Shown: piece by piece, positions 2,697-10,680 of the stretch | How positions within the stretch are numbered: the stretch's first letter is position 1 | How the letters are laid out: every line of letters starts with the position of its first letter | Assembly (NCBI GenBank): GCA_025928335.1 | Contig: JAICJQ010000027.1 | Location: forward strand, 1 to 34,328 | Direction of reading: 5' to 3' | Length of the DNA stretch: 34,328 bases | Origin: Gemmatimonadaceae bacterium | GTDB taxonomy: Bacteria > Gemmatimonadota > Gemmatimonadetes > Gemmatimonadales > Gemmatimonadaceae | Made by a program: the position numbers and the translations under genes | The notes under the pieces: model-generated | What the model was told of the DNA's origin: nothing | The model's database searches: none | What the model saw: only the letters and a program-made list of their open reading frames with translations

Positions 2697-2993
2697 TTAA
2701 CCGTTACGAAGCTCGAGCTGACGCCGCAGCTCGGCATTCTCTCGCTGCATGCGCTCGAGCTCGTCTCCCGCGCCGACTTCCCGCGGCCTCGAAACAGGCG
2801 CCGTGATGCCGACCGCTTCCGAGTACTTCAAATATGTGTCGATGGACGCGACTACGACGCGCGCTTCAACGGTCACCAAGTCGATGCCGACGAGGGACAC
2901 TCGGACCCAGGCATCGATCACGATACCCTTGTCCAGTACGCGATCGAGAACGTCGATCAATGAACTGCCGCTAGGCGTGCGTTCGACAGCCAT
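2697..2993 (-). CDS. gvpA: GvpA, main gas vesicle shell protein, with C-terminal extension
   Basis: GvpA is the small hydrophobic protein that polymerises into ribs forming the gas vesicle wall. Residues 10-62 match the family core closely: [20 protein letters not shown], then [20 protein letters not shown] and [13 protein letters not shown]. Of the three GvpA-family genes here, this has the most canonical structural sequence. At 98 residues it is longer than the usual 70-75. The extra tail (about 72-98) is charged and predicted coiled coil, ending [26 protein letters not shown] sits just upstream of the ATG, a better ribosome binding site than at most genes of the operon, fitting a need for high expression. 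It follows gvpJ by 59 bases. Placing gvpA near the 3' end is unusual, since gvpA is often first in characterised clusters. Confidence 0.95.
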
Positions 2994-3052
2994 GTTCTTC
3001 CGTCCTGTGGGGCTAGGGTCCGGTTTCTACTTTGCGCGCGCTTCTGCGTGCA

Positions 3053-3397
3053 TCACTTGCGAGACGACTTGGACACCGATTCGCTCGCCGACCCCGCCGA
3101 TTGGGCGAGTCGGGTAAGCTGTTCTTCGATCCGCGTAAGACGTGCATCGAGCTCGACATTTGCCGCAGCGGCAGACGCAGTCGACATCGTGAGTCTCGGA
3201 TCGTTGCGCCACCAATTCAGCCCGATCTGCTCGGCCTTGTCGATCGAGCAGACGAGTAGACGAACCTGAATCGTCAGGAGCTCGACGTTCGCCAGGTTGA
3301 TCTTGATGTCACCAGCGATGACGAGGCCCTTGTCCAGCACGCGATCGAGGATGTCGACCAGGCCGTGCGTCCGCGTCGGATTTACGAGCTCGGGCAT
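3053..3397 (-). CDS. gvpJ: GvpJ, minor GvpA-family gas vesicle protein
   Basis: 114 residues of the GvpA superfamily. The core (about 12-60) reads [20 protein letters not shown] followed by NLANVELLTIQVRLLVCSID. The GvpJ signature of a Trp pair then Asn-Asp-Pro (GLNWWRNDP, about 59-67) separates it from GvpA and resembles Bacillus megaterium GvpJ. The C-terminal third (75-114) is a charged coiled coil ending in a Ser/Lys-rich tail. GvpJ is an accessory protein essential for gas vesicle formation in studied systems, thought to act in nucleation or tip assembly. It follows gvpK by 26 bases and precedes gvpA by 59 bases. Confidence 0.9.
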   Translation of the reverse strand: MPELVNPTRTHGLVDILDRVLDKGLVIAGDIKINLANVELLTIQVRLLVCSIDKAEQIGLNWWRNDPRLTMSTASAAAANVELDARLTRIEEQLTRLAQSAGSASESVSKSSRK

Positions 3398-3423
3398 CTG
3401 TAGTTGGTGAGTGGCAGTCTCGG

Positions 3424-3774
3424 CTACCTCAGCCTTCCCAGCGGCCCGAGGTCGATGTTGAGGTCCTCATCGGTCAAACCGAAGACCTCCTTCAACTCGT
3501 CCATCCGATGGTTCAGCTTGAGCAATGCGAGACCCAGGCGCTCCACCTCCTGATCGTTCAGCGTACCACCGTCCATTCGCCGAATCGCTTGGTGCTCCAA
3601 GATTTCGCGTAGCAGTTCTATCACTGTCAGGACGAGTCGCGCAAGACCTTGCTCGACTCGTTCCGGGTCAGCGTTGATTCGCTCCGGCAGCGATCTCGCG
3701 ATGGCGTGGAGCGCCGTCACCGTCTGATCTTCTGCCTGCTGACCGGAGTGCCTCAGCTCGCCACCGTCCGCCAT
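3424..3774 (-). CDS. gvpK: GvpK gas vesicle protein
   Basis: 116 residues, typical for GvpK. After a short variable N-terminus the family core is almost uninterrupted: ERVEQGLARLVLTVIELLRE, then RRMDGGTLNDQEVERLGLAL, and the diagnostic C-terminus FGLTDEDLNIDLGPLGRL. GvpK is an accessory protein needed for gas vesicle formation; its biochemical role is not settled. The ATG lies 3 bases after the stop of the upstream GvpF/L gene, so translational coupling is likely. Confidence 0.95.
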   Translation of the reverse strand: MADGGELRHSGQQAEDQTVTALHAIARSLPERINADPERVEQGLARLVLTVIELLREILEHQAIRRMDGGTLNDQEVERLGLALLKLNHRMDELKEVFGLTDEDLNIDLGPLGRLR

Positions 3775-3777
3775 GCC

Positions 3778-4530
3778 TCAGTCCGCCAGTTTCATGCCGT
3801 GCAGTCCGGTGTCGCTATTTCCGAGCGCGCAGAAGCTATACGGGGCTCGAGGGCCGATGACGAGGAATCGAAGCTCTGTTGTGCTCGCTACCGAAAAGGC
3901 TGCGGCCTTGTAATTCGCGACATCTGGCCGCGGAACGAGATGCGAAATGGTTCGCAGGGGAAGCCGAGTTACCTGGTCGTGAACGGCGCGACGCCGCACG
4001 AAGTCCTTCGTGGCGTCGGTGAGCCTTTTGTCGAGTGAGTCGAGGGAGCGACGAACCGACCCGGTCGCCGCCTCGCGCGCTCGGAGGGATTCCATGTACT
4101 CGCGGCCCGCGCCGGAGCGCTCTGAATCGATCATCGCCGGAATCCCCGGCTCCAGATCGCGTATCATGCGACGCGTGGATGGCGTGAGGATCAACGTCAT
4201 CTCGACGAATCCCTGCATGTCGGCGAGAAGCGTCGTCACCGAATCGGAATAGCTTTCCAGCGCTCCGCGACAGGCCTCGTCGCTGACGAACTCTTGGCCG
4301 AAGCGCGCGGGTACCGGAGTCGCGCCGGTTTCGAGCGCCGCCTCGACGACGGCGTCGTGGGCGCGGACACCATCGATCGACACCGGCATGCCTCGCTCGG
4401 CGTCGCTGATCCAGGCGACCAAACCGCCCATCGCCATCGAACGCACGCGGGCCCCGTCGATTCCGCGAAGATCGGACGGCGGGTCGCCATGTCGCTCGGT
4501 GGGTAGCACGCAGTACAAATGTGTCGTCAC
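3778..4530 (-). CDS. gvpF: GvpF/GvpL-family gas vesicle protein (second copy, divergent)
   Basis: 250 residues starting at a GTG that overlaps the stop of the GvpS-like gene as GTGA. The N-terminal domain begins THLYCVLPTE and contains the family pattern of a strand-rich start, HDAVVEAALETGATPVPARF at about 58-77 and GFVEMTLIL near 107-115. The C-terminus keeps a recognisable end, FLVIGPRAPYSF, in place of the usual GPWPPYSF. GvpF and GvpL proteins are accessory factors that bind GvpA-family subunits during assembly. This copy is more divergent than the one at 4750-5586. Family assignment is firm; the choice of F over L rests on order relative to the Bacillus megaterium cluster and is uncertain. 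Confidence 0.88.
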   Translation of the reverse strand: MTTHLYCVLPTERHGDPPSDLRGIDGARVRSMAMGGLVAWISDAERGMPVSIDGVRAHDAVVEAALETGATPVPARFGQEFVSDEACRGALESYSDSVTTLLADMQGFVEMTLILTPSTRRMIRDLEPGIPAMIDSERSGAGREYMESLRAREAATGSVRRSLDSLDKRLTDATKDFVRRRAVHDQVTRLPLRTISHLVPRPDVANYKAAAFSVASTTELRFLVIGPRAPYSFCALGNSDTGLHGMKLAD

Positions 4531-4766
4531 GTCGATGGTCCCTGTCCCGCGGAAAGCTGGTTCAATGTTCGATCGACATTTCGTTGCACGGCCGTCTCCA
4601 CCGATGACAGCAACAGCCGGAGATCGAGAACGAGCAGATCGATGTCGGCGATGGAGATCGTCACCGTGCCGCTGATCACGACGCCCTTGTCGAGCACGTG
4701 ATGCAGCAAGTCGCCGAGCACCAGCTGCTCGGTATCGATCTCGTCGTCGTCAGGAGCTGGCGCCAT
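4527..4766 (-). CDS. gvpS: GvpS/GvpM-like GvpA-family protein
   Basis: 79 residues from the internal ATG at 4766, which follows the family layout better than the 129-residue open frame. The core LGDLLHHVLDKGVVISG then TISIADIDLLVLDLRLLLSS and VETAV matches GvpS of Bacillus megaterium (IAGVDLVYLDLRVLISSVET) better than GvpA or GvpJ. The N-terminus is short and acidic. It overlaps the 3' end of the upstream GvpL/F gene by 17 bases and the next gene by 4 bases, so translation is tightly coupled. The likely role is a minor shell or nucleation component. In other lineages a similar protein is named GvpM, so the symbol is approximate. Confidence 0.85.
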   Translation of the reverse strand: MAPAPDDDEIDTEQLVLGDLLHHVLDKGVVISGTVTISIADIDLLVLDLRLLLSSVETAVQRNVDRTLNQLSAGQGPST

Positions 4767-5586
4767 CGTCGGCGGTCGAAGTCTGAGCGAAGTGGTACGG
4801 TGGCCAAGGTCCGGTAAAGTCGAAGCGGAAGCCGCGCTGATCGCGCCGTTCGATGATCGACGTGAGTGTTCTCTGAAACTCCTCGAGCGCCGACGACGCG
4901 ACGAGAAATGAGGCATTGAGGACCATGGTCCCGCTCCCCGCGGTCCGGTCAGCGGCCCGCGGAATCGGCGATCGCACCGACTCGAGCGCGCTGCGACCGA
5001 GCTGCTCCACGATCCCGTCCACGAGCTCCTGCGTTACCGTTCGGACCTCGCCGCGCTTTTCCCCATCGAGCTTTCGCTCGAGGAGGTAGCGTTGCCCTGG
5101 TGAGGCGCTCTCCGCCTGCGCCGCCAGCTCGCGCAGGCGCGGACTCATTTCCGGAATCACATCGAGCAATTCGGCGTCCACGCGATACACCCGAAGCGAG
5201 TACTCGCGTCCCTGCCTCACTTTTGCCAGCGCCGACGAGAGTTGCGCGGTTCGCTCGTCGAGCATCGCACAAACGGCGTCGCGGCCGGAAAAGAGGGAAA
5301 ACATCGGGAGCGGGACTACGGCGCCACGGTCACTCGCCCACGTGAGCACCCGATCGTGCGCCATGGCGCGTGGGCTCAGCCAGTCGACCTCTCCGGAGCT
5401 TTCCTCGACACGGTTTGGCGCGTATGCCGCGCCATCGAGGACGGAGACGAGCGCGGCCAACTCACCACGCCGTTCGATGGCGACGTGCGTGTCGTCGAGT
5501 CCCTCGGGGAGCGTGAGAGACGCGCTAGCAAATTCGCCGGGAACGATCCCGTACACGTACCAGATCGAGTCGAGCGTCGACGGCAT
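4750..5586 (-). CDS. gvpL: GvpL/GvpF-family gas vesicle protein (first copy)
   Basis: 278 residues. The N-terminus SIWYVYGIVPGEF is the usual first strand, AHDRVLTWASDRGAVVPLPM (about 102-121) is the conserved His-helix-strand segment, and the C-terminus has both family hallmarks, TMVLNASFLV and FTGPWPPYHF. This is the more canonical of the two GvpL/F proteins here. Its start overlaps the ArsA-like ATPase stop as TAATG, so the two are translationally coupled, and its 3' end overlaps the GvpS-like gene by 17 bases. Position between a G-containing block and gvpS resembles gvpL in the order G-L-S-K-J of Bacillus megaterium, which is why L is used; F is possible. Confidence 0.92.
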   Translation of the reverse strand: MPSTLDSIWYVYGIVPGEFASASLTLPEGLDDTHVAIERRGELAALVSVLDGAAYAPNRVEESSGEVDWLSPRAMAHDRVLTWASDRGAVVPLPMFSLFSGRDAVCAMLDERTAQLSSALAKVRQGREYSLRVYRVDAELLDVIPEMSPRLRELAAQAESASPGQRYLLERKLDGEKRGEVRTVTQELVDGIVEQLGRSALESVRSPIPRAADRTAGSGTMVLNASFLVASSALEEFQRTLTSIIERRDQRGFRFDFTGPWPPYHFAQTSTADDGASS

Positions 5587-7457
5587 TATGACTCAGCGGA
5601 TCGGTTCATCTCGTACCACGAACGAGCCCATGCGCGCAACGCATCCACGCCAATCGGCGACGGGCTCGCGTTATCGGCGCAAAACTGTCGACGCGCATAC
5701 GACTCAGGAAGAGGGGGAGCCGTATTCGTGACGCGATTCCATACAACTCCGATCACGCCGATGCCGAGCGAGTCGACCGCCGCGGTAAGACGGGCGGTCT
5801 CGGCGCGGACGACGGGTTCGTCGAGGGCGACGATCAAGACTCCCGCGCGACCAGCGTCGTGAAGCAGCGCGTCGAGCGCCCGAGTTCGTTTCGCGAAGGC
5901 GAGGAGCTCTTCCGCCGCCGAGCCGAGTCCCACGGCTTCGCGATACTTGAGCATCAAGCGCATCAAGCGATGCGTCCAGTCGAGCGCGAGCGCCGGCATC
6001 TCGAGGAGCCGGAGGAGATGCCCCGTCGGCGCCGGGTCCACGATCACGCGCGTGAACCGACGCTCGAAGAGGGCGTCGCCGAGCAGTGAGAGGGCAAATA
6101 GCTCGTCGATGCCGGGAGGTGCGAGCGAGAGAAGGTTTCGCATGATCCGGCGGTCGCGGTCCGCGTCGACACCGCGTCGCACGATGGCGTTGAACATCGC
6201 GTCGATCCGATCCTGATACTCGTCGCGAAGTCGCGCGAAGGCGGCGCTCGCGTCCATCTGTCGCGCGACCAATCCCGGAACGCCCTCGACGGGCCGCTCG
6301 CGATCTCCCCATGCCGCACCGGACTGCCCGAATGCATCGGCAATCGATGGAGCCGGGTCGGTGGAAACCAACAGCACGTCGTCGCGACCTTCATCGGCCG
6401 CCGCGATCGCGAGGGCGCAGGCAACCGTGCTCTTGCCTACACCACCCTTTCCGCCAACGACGGTCAGTGGGCGAACGAGCTCGGCGACCGCGGTGTCTTG
6501 AAACGCCGGCGCGGCCGCGAGCGGTGCTCGAGCGTTCGACGACCGTCGAGTGGCCCCACGAGAAATCGGCCCTAGTCGTGAGATGGTGTCCGCCACGGCG
6601 TCTACGCCACGCGGCGGCTCGCGCCGCGGAATAAAGTAGGTTGGCAGCGATTCTCCGACGGCGATTCGCGCCGCGGTCGGTTCAGCCGCGTTGACGATCA
6701 GTGCCGCGATGCGAATCTGAAGCGCAGACAGATCCCGGACGTACCGAACTGTCTCGGCAACGACGAGCGGCTCCTCGCGGACGACGACGACCGCGGCGAG
6801 CGCCGCGGGGTCGGCCAGCGTCATACGGAGTCGGTCGATCCGCGATCGCATGTCATCGATGAACTCGTCGGCACGGTCGCGTCGGTATCGATGGGTAAGC
6901 GCGCGCACCATGAAGCGGTGCTTGTCCTGCATCTCGTCGAGCATCGCGAGGAGGGCACGGAACGTGTCGGGGAGCGCGAGCAGGCGCAGCGTGTGCCCCG
7001 TCGGGGCCGTATCGACCACGATGCGTCGATGGCGGCTCGAGGGATCGGCCAGGATATGGGCGACCGCGAGAAGCGAGAAGATCTCGTCGGCGCCCGGGAG
7101 CGCGGCATCAACCAGCCCATCGACGTCGGCGCGGTCGAGATACGTCCCACGATCGATGATCTCGGCGATGACATCGCGCCATCGGTCGAGGAAATTGTGA
7201 CGAAGCTCGCCCGCGGCCAACTGTCGTGCATCCAAACCGGGCACGGACTCCACCGGCATGGCCTCGGTGCCGATGGGAATGCCCATCACTTCCGCAAGCG
7301 CCGCCGCCGGATCGGTCGACAGGAGCAGCACCGGCTCGCCCCGTCGCGCGAAGGCGACCGCGAGCCCGGCGGCGCACGTGGTTTTTCCGACGCCGCCTTT
7401 TCCGACAATCAGTGACGTTCGCGGGAGCTGCTCGATGAGAGAATCGAGCGAGCTCAC
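5586..7457 (-). CDS. Tandem ArsA/Get3-like ATPase within the gas vesicle operon
   Basis: 623 residues made of two ArsA-type P-loop NTPase halves. Half 1 has the deviant Walker A GKGGVGKTT at 19-27 and the signature DTAPTGHT at 149-156. Half 2 has GGKGGVGKST at 335-344 and VDPAPTGH at 473-480. A linker rich in Ser/Arg/Ala lies near 300-325. Both nucleotide sites look intact. The Cys residues that bind arsenite in ArsA are absent, as is the Get3 zinc CxxC, and no arsR, arsB or arsC lies nearby, so arsenic export is unlikely. It starts with GTG overlapping the gvpG stop (GTGA), and its TAA overlaps the GvpL/F ATG. Inference: an assembly or chaperone ATPase for the hydrophobic GvpA-family subunits, perhaps doing the job that the AAA+ protein GvpN does elsewhere. 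The fold is certain; the role is not. Confidence 0.88.
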   Translation of the reverse strand: MSSLDSLIEQLPRTSLIVGKGGVGKTTCAAGLAVAFARRGEPVLLLSTDPAAALAEVMGIPIGTEAMPVESVPGLDARQLAAGELRHNFLDRWRDVIAEIIDRGTYLDRADVDGLVDAALPGADEIFSLLAVAHILADPSSRHRRIVVDTAPTGHTLRLLALPDTFRALLAMLDEMQDKHRFMVRALTHRYRRDRADEFIDDMRSRIDRLRMTLADPAALAAVVVVREEPLVVAETVRYVRDLSALQIRIAALIVNAAEPTAARIAVGESLPTYFIPRREPPRGVDAVADTISRLGPISRGATRRSSNARAPLAAAPAFQDTAVAELVRPLTVVGGKGGVGKSTVACALAIAAADEGRDDVLLVSTDPAPSIADAFGQSGAAWGDRERPVEGVPGLVARQMDASAAFARLRDEYQDRIDAMFNAIVRRGVDADRDRRIMRNLLSLAPPGIDELFALSLLGDALFERRFTRVIVDPAPTGHLLRLLEMPALALDWTHRLMRLMLKYREAVGLGSAAEELLAFAKRTRALDALLHDAGRAGVLIVALDEPVVRAETARLTAAVDSLGIGVIGVVWNRVTNTAPPLPESYARRQFCADNASPSPIGVDALRAWARSWYEMNRSAES

Positions 7458-7756
7458 TCCTCTTCGTTGTTCTTGGCGACGCGAACGGGGCCGCCGCTCG
7501 TCGCCTTTCCGAGCCGCTCACGCCACGCTCGCACGTCGCGCAGCTGCGCCATCAGCGCCGCCTCGCGCTCGACGTATTGGTCGTCCGTGATATCGCCAAG
7601 CTCGAGCTGCATTTGCAGCTCCATCAACGCCTGCTTCACGGGCGCGTCGTCGGTAAGCTCTTCTTCGACGACGCTCTGGACCTTCCCCAGCGACCAACGG
7701 ATCCCGGCGACGGGACCGCTGATCGGAAAGAAGAGAAGCTTGCCGAGAAGGCCCAC
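7454..7756 (-). CDS. gvpG: GvpG gas vesicle protein
   Basis: 100 residues from a GTG at 7756. The longer open frame upstream is a shadow of the kinase gene. The start GLLGKLLFFPISGPVAGIRW is the GvpG hydrophobic N-terminus. VVEEELTDDAPVKQALMELQ, then LELGDITDDQYVEREAALMA, form the charged helical middle with the typical G-(E/D)-I-(S/T)-(D/E) turn. The tail is short and acidic (KNNEEE). GvpG is a small accessory protein found beside GvpF/L and needed for gas vesicle formation in studied systems. It begins 13 bases after the deoxynucleoside kinase stop and overlaps the ArsA-like gene by 4 bases. Confidence 0.88.
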   Translation of the reverse strand: MGLLGKLLFFPISGPVAGIRWSLGKVQSVVEEELTDDAPVKQALMELQMQLELGDITDDQYVEREAALMAQLRDVRAWRERLGKATSGGPVRVAKNNEEE

Positions 7757-7769
7757 GGCTTGTCTCCGC

Positions 7770-8450
7770 TCAGGCGAACGCGCGCTTGCGCGTCGCGTTC
7801 GGCCAAAGCTCCGTCTGTGGTAGCTCGCCCTCGAGCTCCGTGCGCACCCGGGCCGCGATCTCGTCCACCGCGTGCGGATCGGCCACGAGGTCGTAGTCGC
7901 GAACGTCGAGCGACAGGACGGCGCACTGCGTGAACCCGGCGATCCAACGCTCGTAGCGATCGTGGAGCGCGGTCCAATAGTCGAGCGACGTTTCCTTTTC
8001 TTTCGGTCGGCCGCGCATCGCGATGCGCGCGGCAATCACGTCGAGCGGACCATGCAGGTAAATGAGCAGGCGCGGCGGCCGTGCCGCGGGCGAATACAGC
8101 AACTCGGCGTAGAGACGTCGATAGAGCGTCCACTCGTCCGATGTCATGTAGCCCTGCTCGAACAGTCCACGCGCGAAGATCTCTGCGTCTTCGTACCATG
8201 TTCGATCGAGCACCCAGCTGCCGCCGAGCCCGCGCATTCGTCGCATGCCGGCGAAGCGCGTCGCAAGAAAATGCAGCTGCAATTGCAACGCGTACGCGCG
8301 CATCTCTTCGGGCCCGCCGTAGAAACTCTCCAGCCACGGATTGTCCGCGTCGACGCTCTCGAGCGCGAGCTGCAACCCGAAGCGCGAGGCGAGCGCGCGC
8401 GAAAGAGTAGTCTTTCCCGTCCCGACCATGCCGGCAACGCCAATCAACAT
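7770..8450 (-). CDS. Deoxynucleoside kinase (dAK/dGK family)
   Basis: 226 residues. It has a P-loop GMVGTGKTT at 7-15, an acidic substrate-site segment around LESVDADNPW (35-44), the family DR motif in LDRTWYEDAEIFARG (about 81-95), and a LID segment with RGRPKEKETSLDYW (about 147-160). These are the marks of the dNK family (PF01712), which phosphorylates deoxynucleosides in salvage. It is the first gene of the tight run leading into gvpG, 13 bases apart. Upstream there are 82 bases holding an inverted repeat, then the Rieske operon on the same strand. Salvage function follows from family; which base it prefers cannot be read. Its place at the head of a gas vesicle operon may be chance. Confidence 0.88.
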   Translation of the reverse strand: MLIGVAGMVGTGKTTLSRALASRFGLQLALESVDADNPWLESFYGGPEEMRAYALQLQLHFLATRFAGMRRMRGLGGSWVLDRTWYEDAEIFARGLFEQGYMTSDEWTLYRRLYAELLYSPAARPPRLLIYLHGPLDVIAARIAMRGRPKEKETSLDYWTALHDRYERWIAGFTQCAVLSLDVRDYDLVADPHAVDEIAARVRTELEGELPQTELWPNATRKRAFA

Positions 8451-8532: not shown

Positions 8533-9000
8533 TCAAGCGATGGTGATCGTGCCCGCCGCCGTGTCGATCGTGACGTCTAACTGTCTCAATGCTGTGATCG
8601 GACCACTCGAGACATTGGGGCCATGAATCACCGACCCATCCTTCGCGTACAGCGACCCGTGACAGGGACACTCGAGTTGGTTACTGCGCACTTCGACATC
8701 GCACTGCTCGTGAGTGCAAATGCGCGATAAGCCGAGGAAGCTGTTCGCGCCCGTGCGCATCACCGCGCGCTCGCGGTCGAGCTCCACGAGCACACCGACC
8801 GTGGCGAGCTCCGGATGACTGGCGAGCGAGATCGTCAGCGGTGGACCTGGGGGCACGTTCGGATCCCCACCCCCAGTGGTATTACGGAGTGGTGGACCGA
8901 TTTGGCCATCGCCGCACGCCTCCAGCGCGGCCAATGCCGCCGCGGCGAGGGCGGAACGGGCGAAAAACTCACGTCGATTCAGGCAGTCCTGACAGGACAT
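8533..9000 (-). CDS. Tat-exported Rieske 2Fe-2S lipoprotein, high-potential type
   Basis: 155 residues from the ATG at 9000. NRREFFARSA at 8-17 is a twin-arginine signal, and LEAC (Cys29) after the hydrophobic stretch may be a lipobox, so it is probably a folded, anchored periplasmic protein. The cluster motif is C95-T-H97 and C111-P-C-H114. Cys100 and Cys113 match the extra disulfide pair of bc1/b6f-type Rieske proteins, which usually goes with high potential. It follows a second Rieske gene by 20 bases in an operon with two membrane proteins. An electron-transfer role is firm; its partner is not known. Confidence 0.9.
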   Translation of the reverse strand: MSCQDCLNRREFFARSALAAAALAALEACGDGQIGPPLRNTTGGGDPNVPPGPPLTISLASHPELATVGVLVELDRERAVMRTGANSFLGLSRICTHEQCDVEVRSNQLECPCHGSLYAKDGSVIHGPNVSSGPITALRQLDVTIDTAAGTITIA

Positions 9001-9020
9001 GGCGAGTCTTTGGTGACGGT

Positions 9021-9560
9021 TCACACCGTGACGACGGCCGCCTTCCACTCCGTTTCGTCGTCGTCTTCCTGGTACAGCTTATCCAGGTTGACCATCAGAT
9101 TGTTCCCGTCTTTGCGAACGGCGAACCGATCCAGCCCGCGCGTGGCACGGCCACTGTCCTTCACATAGAGCCCGTCGGGCTGAAAGCGCGAGTGGTGCTT
9201 GGGGCACTCGAACTGCCCGTCTTTGTCGAACCATTTGATCGCCGTATTCTGGTGCGGACAGGCAAGCGAGAACGCGTACACCATTCCCTGCCAGCGGGTC
9301 ACGATGACGCCGTTCTCCTTGTCGATCTGGCTCCCGTCCTTCGCGGGAATGGGATACGGTTTGTCGTCTCGTGAGCCACCAATCGACGTTATCGCCTCCA
9401 GCGGCGCCGCCGCGGCGCGAGCCGGAGACGCGCCGAGGGCGACGAGAATGCCCACCGCGATCGCGCCCGCGTCGCGCAGAAACTCTCGGCGCGGGACCAG
9501 CGCACAACCATCGCACCCATCGTTTTCGTTCACGTTTGCTGCATATGTGCCGCGTGACAT
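9021..9560 (-). CDS. Tat-exported Rieske 2Fe-2S protein, without the disulfide pair
   Basis: 179 residues from the ATG at 9560; the longer open frame overlaps the upstream gene. LVPRREFLRDAG at 21-32 is a twin-arginine signal, followed by a hydrophobic stretch and ASPARA as a probable cleavage site. The Rieske ligands are C101-P-H103 and C119-P-K-H122. The two extra cysteines of bc1-type proteins are absent, so it resembles the lower-potential, ferredoxin-like or arsenite-oxidase-small-subunit group. Cys16 and Cys19 lie before the Tat motif (CDGC). It starts 8 bases after the membrane protein stop. Confidence 0.9.
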   Translation of the reverse strand: MSRGTYAANVNENDGCDGCALVPRREFLRDAGAIAVGILVALGASPARAAAAPLEAITSIGGSRDDKPYPIPAKDGSQIDKENGVIVTRWQGMVYAFSLACPHQNTAIKWFDKDGQFECPKHHSRFQPDGLYVKDSGRATRGLDRFAVRKDGNNLMVNLDKLYQEDDDETEWKAAVVTV

Positions 9561-9568
9561 CAGGTTGA

Positions 9569-10069
9569 TCAGCTCAGGTTTACAAGGGCTACGCCGAGCG
9601 CCGTGATGATGAACCACAGCGCGAGGCTGGAGATGGAGCCGCGACGCAAAGAGGCCCAGGCCGGCGAGGCCGGCGCGGGATCTTTGCCGAGCGCACTCTC
9701 GGCGCGGAGCATCAACAGGCCATTTAGCAGAAGCAGTGCGACGAGCCCCATCTTCGTCCAGAAGATCCACGATCCGAAGAAGGTCTCGATGTCCGCGGTG
9801 AGCATCGCCAGGCCGCTGATCACGACGACCACCAATCCCGTGATCACCCAGCGGTGGACCGCGGCGAGCTCGCGCAGCTGCTGCCCACGATCCGCAACGA
9901 CGCCGCGGACTGTTCGCAGCGAGCCGCGATCTGCCGAAATCGCGAGGCCGCCCGCGAGTAACGTGCCGCCGATGTGAAGGAACTGCACGACGGTTTCGGC
10001 GCCCTTGGAGTGACTGTAGTACTTGTTCCAGGGCTCGAACAATTGCACGATCGAACCAGGAAGAATCAT
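9569..10069 (-). CDS. Four-helix membrane protein of the Rieske operon
   Basis: 166 residues with four likely membrane helices near 28-45, 73-91, 100-121 and 147-165. His32 (FLHIGG) lies in helix 1 and His72 (VHRW) at the head of helix 2, positions that could ligate haem, but two more ligands are not obvious. I do not recognise a named family; it resembles small CopD- or b-type-like membrane proteins in layout. It lies 8 bases after the preceding membrane protein gene and 8 bases before the Rieske gene, so the four genes are one transcript. Inference: a membrane anchor or redox partner for the Rieske proteins. Confidence 0.75.
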   Translation of the reverse strand: MILPGSIVQLFEPWNKYYSHSKGAETVVQFLHIGGTLLAGGLAISADRGSLRTVRGVVADRGQQLRELAAVHRWVITGLVVVVISGLAMLTADIETFFGSWIFWTKMGLVALLLLNGLLMLRAESALGKDPAPASPAWASLRRGSISSLALWFIITALGVALVNLS

Positions 10070-10077
10070 CGAGAGGC

Positions 10078-10680
10078 TTAGCGATTCCAGAGTTTCATGG
10101 CGGTACCACTGATCACGGTCAAACCCATTGCGGATAGCGCGACCGTTCGATGCAACCGCCGTTTACTCGCGTCAGTCTCAGCCTCGTTCGAGAGTTTGGC
10201 TCCCGCGTATGTGAACGCAGCATCGGCCGCAACCATCGAAAACGCATGGACCGTACGCAGCACACGTCCCTGCGCCAGCATCCGCGAGTCCCACCAGTTC
10301 CACAACCCGGTCACCGTATTTACGGTGAACATCCCCGCAAGCGCTGTAGCGCCTGCTCGATGGACGGTTTTGGCCCACGTCGGAGCGGCCCGGCTCTCGT
10401 CGTAGAGCTTCTTCCCGGCGATCCATTGTGCCGCGAACACCGGAATCGTGCTGTAGGCGGTATACCGATGAATTGTCAGGCGTCGGGAGTACCAGTCGCT
10501 CACTTCGATGACCCTGGGGCGAGCCCGCGGGGTATCGGTCGGGATCGCGGGACGGGCACGCAGGGGATTCACCGTATCAAGCGCCGCCGCGAATGCCCGG
10601 GGCTGCTCGACGGACGCGATCGCCGGCGCCGGTCCACCGGTCGCCAAGCAGCACATCAGGCCGAATACCGTCATGTCCAT
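10078..10680 (-). CDS. Membrane protein with b-type cytochrome-like His pattern
   Basis: 200 residues. The first 25 look like a signal segment, then comes a Pro/Arg-rich stretch and four hydrophobic helices. His71 (IHRYTAY), His107 (TVHRAG), His145 (TVHAFS) and His177 (LHRTVA) each sit at the start of a helix. This spacing is what is expected of two bis-His haem sites or one plus a spare pair, as in cytochrome b561-like or DUF4405-like proteins. Trp-rich GLWNWW lies at 125-130. It is the first gene of the Rieske operon; the promoter should lie in 10681-10799, shared with the divergent gene. Haem binding is inference. Confidence 0.75.
   Translation of the reverse strand: MDMTVFGLMCCLATGGPAPAIASVEQPRAFAAALDTVNPLRARPAIPTDTPRARPRVIEVSDWYSRRLTIHRYTAYSTIPVFAAQWIAGKKLYDESRAAPTWAKTVHRAGATALAGMFTVNTVTGLWNWWDSRMLAQGRVLRTVHAFSMVAADAAFTYAGAKLSNEAETDASKRRLHRTVALSAMGLTVISGTAMKLWNR

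Follow-up and report, generated by a model that had tools for sequence, protein, structure and literature searches.

In the cytochrome b of bc1 complexes, the heme ligands are two histidines on each of two helices. Rieske proteins of the kind treated here have known potentials of about +130 to +335 mV (PMC3758308, PMC12954380). In the arsenite oxidase Rieske protein AioB, the disulfide is uncorrelated with the potential, and the addition of a disulfide lowered it by 35 mV (PMC3758308); in the yeast Rieske protein, loss of the serine that hydrogen-bonds to the cluster costs about 130 mV and loss of the tyrosine about 65 mV (PMC12954380). The second-sphere Ser and Tyr are better predictors of the potential than the disulfide. 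Among small heme-binding membrane proteins, E. coli CybB is the closest characterised natural diheme four-helix protein that we found described, and the designed bundle CytbX holds its heme ligands with threonines (PMC10120048), while HemJ, according to Skotnicova 2018 (as cited in PMC11662147), is a heme protein of the b type. Lastly, a published survey of the Gemmatimonadota reported few bc1 or alternative complex III annotations (the latter in <10% of genomes) and raised, as a speculation, the existence of new types of complex III module (PMC9426454).

The window, i.e., the whole stretch of 34,328 nucleotides analysed, belongs to a 281-contig assembly of 79% completeness and carries four genes on the minus strand. 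They code for M1 (10078..10680; 200 aa), a probable membrane protein studied by AlphaFold, homologue alignment, and hydropathy; M2 (9569..10069; 166 aa), a four-helix membrane protein studied through weak profile matches, AlphaFold, and alignment; and R1 (9021..9560, ATG at 9560; 179 aa) and R2 (8533..9000, ATG at 9000; 155 aa), two TAT-exported Rieske proteins recognised by PF00355, of which only R2 has the disulfide pair. The intergenic gaps M1/M2, M2/R1, and R1/R2 measure 8, 8, and 20 bases. The original prediction, drawn from the bare sequence, had described such a four-gene redox operon, with Tat export of both Rieske proteins and a disulfide pair in one of them, and its positions and gaps, the twin-arginine signals of R1 and R2, and the pair, absent from R1 (CPH...CPKH) and present in R2 (CTHEQC...CPCH), are all confirmed. 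Its reading of the locus as a minimal membrane electron-transfer chain holds as far as the redox operon is concerned, whereas the single linear chain gives way to a better-fitting arrangement in two parts. Specifically, the best reading, to which we assign a probability of about 0.5, is that two electron-transfer modules, each made of a membrane protein and a Rieske protein (M1-R2 and M2-R1), are joined in one operon.

Downstream of the operon, after a gap of 82 bases, lies a deoxynucleoside kinase gene (7770..8450, minus strand). Among the wide loci compared, ten also have it near the operon, and it is the main recurrent same-strand neighbour; we do not count it as a member of the redox system. 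Some other recurrent neighbours (clusters 4, 5, 7, 15) seem to be shadow ORFs that lie antisense to genuine genes. Gas vesicle genes also stand just downstream on the minus strand (2697-8035), including GvpL/F at 4750-5586, GvpG within 7454-8035, small proteins that are GvpA-like by appearance at 2697-3397, and, among them, a double ArsA-type ATPase (5586-7457); a similar set occupies the same place in same-genus genomes.

R1 and R2 pass the PF00355 cut-off of 20.3 bits with 29.8 and 38.9 bits, respectively, and the cluster ligand motif CxH...CxxH is kept in 83 of 84 R1 domains (the remaining one is cut short) and in all 73 R2 domains. R1 has a TAT signal with probable cleavage after an AxA motif. 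The R2 of the window combines a TAT signal with a lipobox cysteine (Cys29) and, judging from this signature, is a probable lipoprotein; the strict lipobox pattern is present in 53/73 R2 domains, most of the others also have a cysteine there, and several domains without the strict pattern come second in tandem proteins. Of the R2 domains, 16/73 have both disulfide cysteines and 57/73 have neither, and, since these cysteines never occur singly, they point to a real disulfide where present. R1 has a second sphere with Ser (83/83) and Tyr (79/83), R2 mostly one with Ala and Phe (51 domains without the disulfide, 7 with it), so that in most genomes the higher potential is predicted for R1. The window is atypical, because its R1 has Ser and Phe and its R2 has the disulfide, Ser, and Tyr, all three features of bc1, and here R2 is predicted to be the higher-potential one. 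These residues suggest that the two clusters differ in potential, in a direction that is opposite in the window to that of most of the family. The difference anticipated originally is still predicted from Ser/Tyr versus Ala/Phe; the disulfide, on which it had been based, is a weak ground, given its presence in a minority of R2 domains and the lack of correlation in AioB.

Most R1 and R2 proteins also bear two cysteines, two or three residues apart, shortly before the twin arginine (in the window, in the N-termini starting at 9560 and 9000), in the part of the signal expected to stay cytoplasmic. In several genomes (L079, L096, L105, L123, L127, L060) R2 occurs as tandem double Rieske domains, which form one protein in L079 and L096. 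Moreover, the genome of the window contains three more R1-like Rieske genes (L043, L044, L046), with no M1 or M2 seen beside them.

The distribution of the genes was followed across roughly 300 sampled genomes of the Gemmatimonadota, which are soil bacteria. M1 is found in 90/298 genomes and M2 in 85/296, and in 71 genomes they are neighbours on one strand within 2 kb, with M1 usually upstream by <105 bases; the operon is carried by less than one third of the sampled genomes, in a patchy, accessory distribution. When 103 regions, the window among them, were surveyed with profiles, they yielded 109 gene clusters, of which M1-M2-R1-R2 is the commonest arrangement (42), followed by M1-M2-R1, in which R2 alone is missing (19), M1-R2 (9), M2-R1 (8), M2 alone (8), M1 alone (4), M1-R2-M2-R1 (4), and M1-R2-R2-M2-R1 (4), with the other arrangements occurring once each. 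The four genes are thus kept together elsewhere, as the original prediction required, in an order that recurs far beyond chance in related genomes. Rearranged and partial loci retain M1-R2 (9), R2-M1 (1), M2-R1 (8), or both pairs in M1-R2(-R2)-M2-R1 (8), and the opposite pairings M1-R1 (1) and M2-R2 (1) are rare. The association of M1 with R2 and of M2 with R1 gives a Fisher p=0.0009 when counted naively, ignoring shared ancestry, and p=0.026, again ignoring it, without the loci split by an inserted gene; several loci in these statistics come from the same genera, and the R1 and R2 classes were set by our own profiles. Because broken or reordered operons usually keep these pairs, the system is read as modular. 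In one genus (L080/L099, L081), M2-R1 is separated from M1, or from M1 and R2, by the insertion of an ABC-F-like ATPase gene that lies on the other strand. A lone M1 paralogue is located at G000:C34 15701-16165 (L002, L066), between two alpha-glucan-metabolism-like genes of the same genome.

The operon is not a bc1 complex, an alternative complex III, an AioAB, or an oxygenase, which bears out the original exclusion of the first two and of the oxygenases. None of its proteins matches the PF00033 cytochrome b, and no CxxCH motif, the mark of the c-type cytochrome subunit of bc1/b6f, occurs in the called ORFs of the window. R2 scores far below the bc1/b6f equivalogs (29.0 of 97.4 bits for TIGR01416, 40.6 of 250 for NF045928), and both Rieske proteins fall short of the AioB equivalog (R1 31.1 and R2 24.7 of 95.65 bits), with no recurrent molybdenum subunit (AioA) among the conserved neighbours examined. 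The alternative complex III subunits (NrfD-type protein, pentaheme cytochrome c, large TAT protein) are absent from the operon. A bc1-type cytochrome b was found neither in the genome of the window (79% complete) nor in three same-genus genomes (99-100% complete); across the 71 operon genomes it is present in 41 and absent in 30, against a background of 155/296. Two of these three same-genus genomes, G177 and G144, have a separate operon that is complete for alternative complex III by its anatomy (loci L077, L078), coding for a protein with five CxxCH motifs, a large TAT protein, an NrfD-type membrane protein, a protein with one CxxCH, and another large membrane protein. A replacement of bc1 or alternative complex III by the operon was rejected, and, since bc1 cytochrome b is not a condition for its presence and alternative complex III is complete in same-genus genomes, the operon is regarded as an accessory system. 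NrfD-family genes, which also serve other enzymes, occur in 293/296 genomes of the sample, compared with the <10% annotated for alternative complex III (PMC9426454), and therefore this complex is probably under-annotated in the phylum; NrfD was not found in the genome of the window, a gap attributed to its incompleteness.

A conceivable but rather unlikely reading is that the operon represents an undescribed class of Rieske/cytochrome b quinol oxidoreductase, which would use a minimal four-helix diheme cytochrome and a HemJ-like protein in place of the bc1 cytochrome b and in which two membrane-Rieske modules, with clusters that differ in potential, would have been merged into one operon. Another view takes all four proteins as one quinol:cytochrome c oxidoreductase of a further complex III type, with two hemes of M1 across the membrane, the quinone site in M2, and R1 and R2 as two electron exits. 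The prevalence of the tight four-gene arrangement, the diheme-like M1, the Rieske proteins as in bc1, and the survey's speculation on novel complex III modules (PMC9426454) agree with it, but it has to contend with the complete alternative complex III of the two same-genus genomes, the near-universal NrfD, the independence from bc1 cytochrome b, the modules standing separately in some genomes, and the presence of the operon in under one third of them; such a new complex-III-like enzyme is possible but unlikely, and less likely than two modules.

M1 begins with a likely signal-like N-terminus, ahead of four helices (62-98, 101-131, 139-167, and 171-198 in the AlphaFold model; mean pLDDT 83, helices mostly >90). 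The four histidines singled out originally are present and invariant in homologues: His107, His145, and His177 are kept in 94/94 sequences and His71 in 93/93 having that column, and in the model each helix bears one of them near its start. With a rise of 1.5 A per residue along the helix, their depths from one end of the bundle are about 14 A (His71), 36 A (His107), 9 A (His145), and 32 A (His177), an alternation that gives diagonal pairs as in the two bis-His hemes of a diheme bundle. On the basis of this placement in sequence and model, M1 is a candidate diheme four-helix b-type cytochrome, a working likeness in which heme is predicted. Thr124 is also invariant, and its likeness to the threonines of CytbX is only suggestive. 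The helices are moderately hydrophobic (family-averaged Kyte-Doolittle maxima 1.1-1.5, versus 1.6-2.4 for M2), so that, of the two membrane proteins predicted originally, M2 is upheld and M1 is likely rather than proven; the loop charges of M1 give no clear topology and leave its outward-facing end undecided.

In the profile libraries, neither M1 nor M2 receives a family assignment above a curated cut-off, and a Foldseek search of the PDB with both models returned no significant structural homologue. M1 members match DUF4079 (30/33, best 1.3e-5), the prokaryotic cytochrome b561 family PF01292 (7/33, best E 1.1e-3; tabulated scores <=16.4 bits, below the cut-off of 30.1), and the eukaryotic cytochrome b561 family PF03188 (1/33, E 0.2, below cut-off). 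Among the nearest PDB sequences and folds are the cytochrome b561 4o6y and the designed diheme bundle 4D2, both below significance; the best sequence match of the M1 profile is 4D2 (E 0.012, not significant). There is no support for a common origin of M1 and M2 (hhalign probability 1%) or for M1 as an internally duplicated protein (2%), both of which were considered. The likeness to CybB, whose family is among these weak matches, and the patchy, accessory distribution could be taken to mean that M1 works like CybB and the operon supplies periplasmic oxidative-stress defence or repair. This is quite unlikely, as the PF01292 scores stay under the cut-off and no repair or stress enzyme is conserved beside the operon among the neighbours examined. 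Moreover, CybB is not known to work with Rieske proteins, which also counts against such a role.

The AlphaFold model of M2 is a confident four-helix bundle (pLDDT 95), its loop charges favour an N-out/C-out orientation, and its invariant residues are H32, D47, H72, K106, N116, S148, and W152 (H32, H72, and K106 in 93/93; N116, S148, and W152 likewise throughout 93 sequences). Members match DUF6644 (2.4e-7), DUF2214 (2.4e-6), CopD (1.1e-4), and UPF0093/HemJ (19/29 members), all below cut-offs, and the M2 of the window scores 22.5 of 34.1 bits for DUF2214, 22.3 of 27 for DUF6644, and 14.6 of 138 for the HemJ equivalog TIGR00701; the E-values suggest that M2 is distant kin of DUF2214, DUF6644, and CopD. 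The profile search proposed with the original prediction hence places M1 near b561-like and M2 near HemJ-like families, described as or suspected of being heme-binding, with all matches weak and sub-cut-off, and not near the cofactor-free families that would have spoken against it. M2 might accordingly be a porphyrin- or heme-handling enzyme (a HemJ-like protoporphyrinogen oxidase or a CopD-like metal factor) whose electrons are taken by R1, with M1-R2 separate and co-regulated by chance; the sub-cut-off HemJ and CopD matches, the invariant His and Lys, and the separability of the two modules lend themselves to this idea, which is nonetheless improbable in view of the distance from the HemJ equivalog, an occurrence of M2 too restricted for an essential biosynthetic step, and the lack of tetrapyrrole genes among the conserved neighbours of the operon. 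Highly improbable is that M1 and M2 are cofactor-free and merely anchor or fold Rieske carriers serving dispersed periplasmic enzymes, for although R1-type Rieske genes and M1 also occur alone, four invariant histidines, one per helix and at matching depths, would make little sense unless they bind hemes or metals.

In the two-module reading, M1 would be a cytochrome b of minimal, four-helix size that holds one bis-His heme near one face (His71/His145) and another near the opposite face (His107/His177), and it may hand electrons to the lipid-anchored R2. M2 probably binds a single heme b close to the periplasmic face, through H32 and either H72 or K106, and would serve the soluble TAT-exported R1. 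The modules would most likely draw electrons from menaquinol and pass them to an acceptor in the periplasm (probably a c-type cytochrome), forming a side branch beside alternative complex III. The flow from quinol to periplasm is favoured because the Rieske potentials given above exceed that of menaquinol, a donor whose choice rests partly on the general knowledge of the phylum. Against this reading stand the family matches below every curated cut-off, the lack of a significant fold homologue, the moderate hydrophobicity and unclear topology of M1, and the limits of the pairing statistics given above; also, no quinone site was identified, and a cytochrome c gene adjoins the operon in few loci only. 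In its favour, L036 and L082 each have one cytochrome c gene immediately after M2-R1.

Beyond the phylum, the search was shallow and covered plasmids, viral contigs, and one scan of genome contigs. M1 and M2 had no matches in plasmids, where R1 had three distant Rieske matches only, and M1 and R1 had none in viral contigs; the scan with R1, which reaches close relatives only, gave six loci, all from Gemmatimonadota, and the closest named relatives of R1 are metagenome-assembled genomes of this phylum. On the Gloeocapsa plasmid NC_020051.1 (97325-97750; L159), a distantly R1-like Rieske gene follows multicopper oxidase and metal cation transporter genes. No description of the four-gene operon was found in the literature searched, and its combination of parts, each of a known kind, has no described counterpart in the papers and profile libraries searched; the set is apparently undescribed so far. 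If the hemes and complexes are real, the operon offers a small natural electron-transfer unit of the kind that protein designers also aim for (4D2, CytbX), here linked to Rieske proteins that belong to neither the bc1 nor the alternative complex III family. The operon would also be an unrecognised respiratory branch in a widespread, poorly cultured phylum with unsatisfactory complex III annotation (PMC9426454), and would provide natural Rieske pairs whose second-sphere residues differ systematically, on which the setting of the potential could be studied.

Compared with known systems, M1 resembles the cytochromes b561 (E. coli CybB, PF01292; eukaryotic, PF03188) in its four-helix bundle with two predicted bis-His hemes held by diagonal helices at alternating depth, and differs from them in scoring below the curated cut-offs, in being encoded with Rieske proteins, and in having no significant fold match. 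M2 has weak, recurrent matches over much of its length to HemJ/UPF0093, CopD, DUF2214, and DUF6644, with conserved His and Lys and with heme b bound by HemJ, but it is below every curated cut-off, is paired with a TAT-exported Rieske protein, and has an accessory distribution. AioB is small and TAT-exported like R1 and R2, whose profiles match it including the signal region, and the NT-26 AioB also lacks the disulfide; unlike AioB, R1 and R2 are below the equivalog cut-off, with no AioA seen near the operon and membrane partners instead. The bc1/b6f complexes share with the operon a diheme membrane cytochrome, here predicted, and a Rieske protein, with the disulfide, Ser, and Tyr of bc1 all found in the R2 of the window, whereas the operon is devoid of PF00033 cytochrome b and of cytochrome c1/f. 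Lastly, the bundles 4D2 and CytbX have the minimal four-helix diheme architecture predicted for M1, although these designs are artificial and the similarity is not significant.
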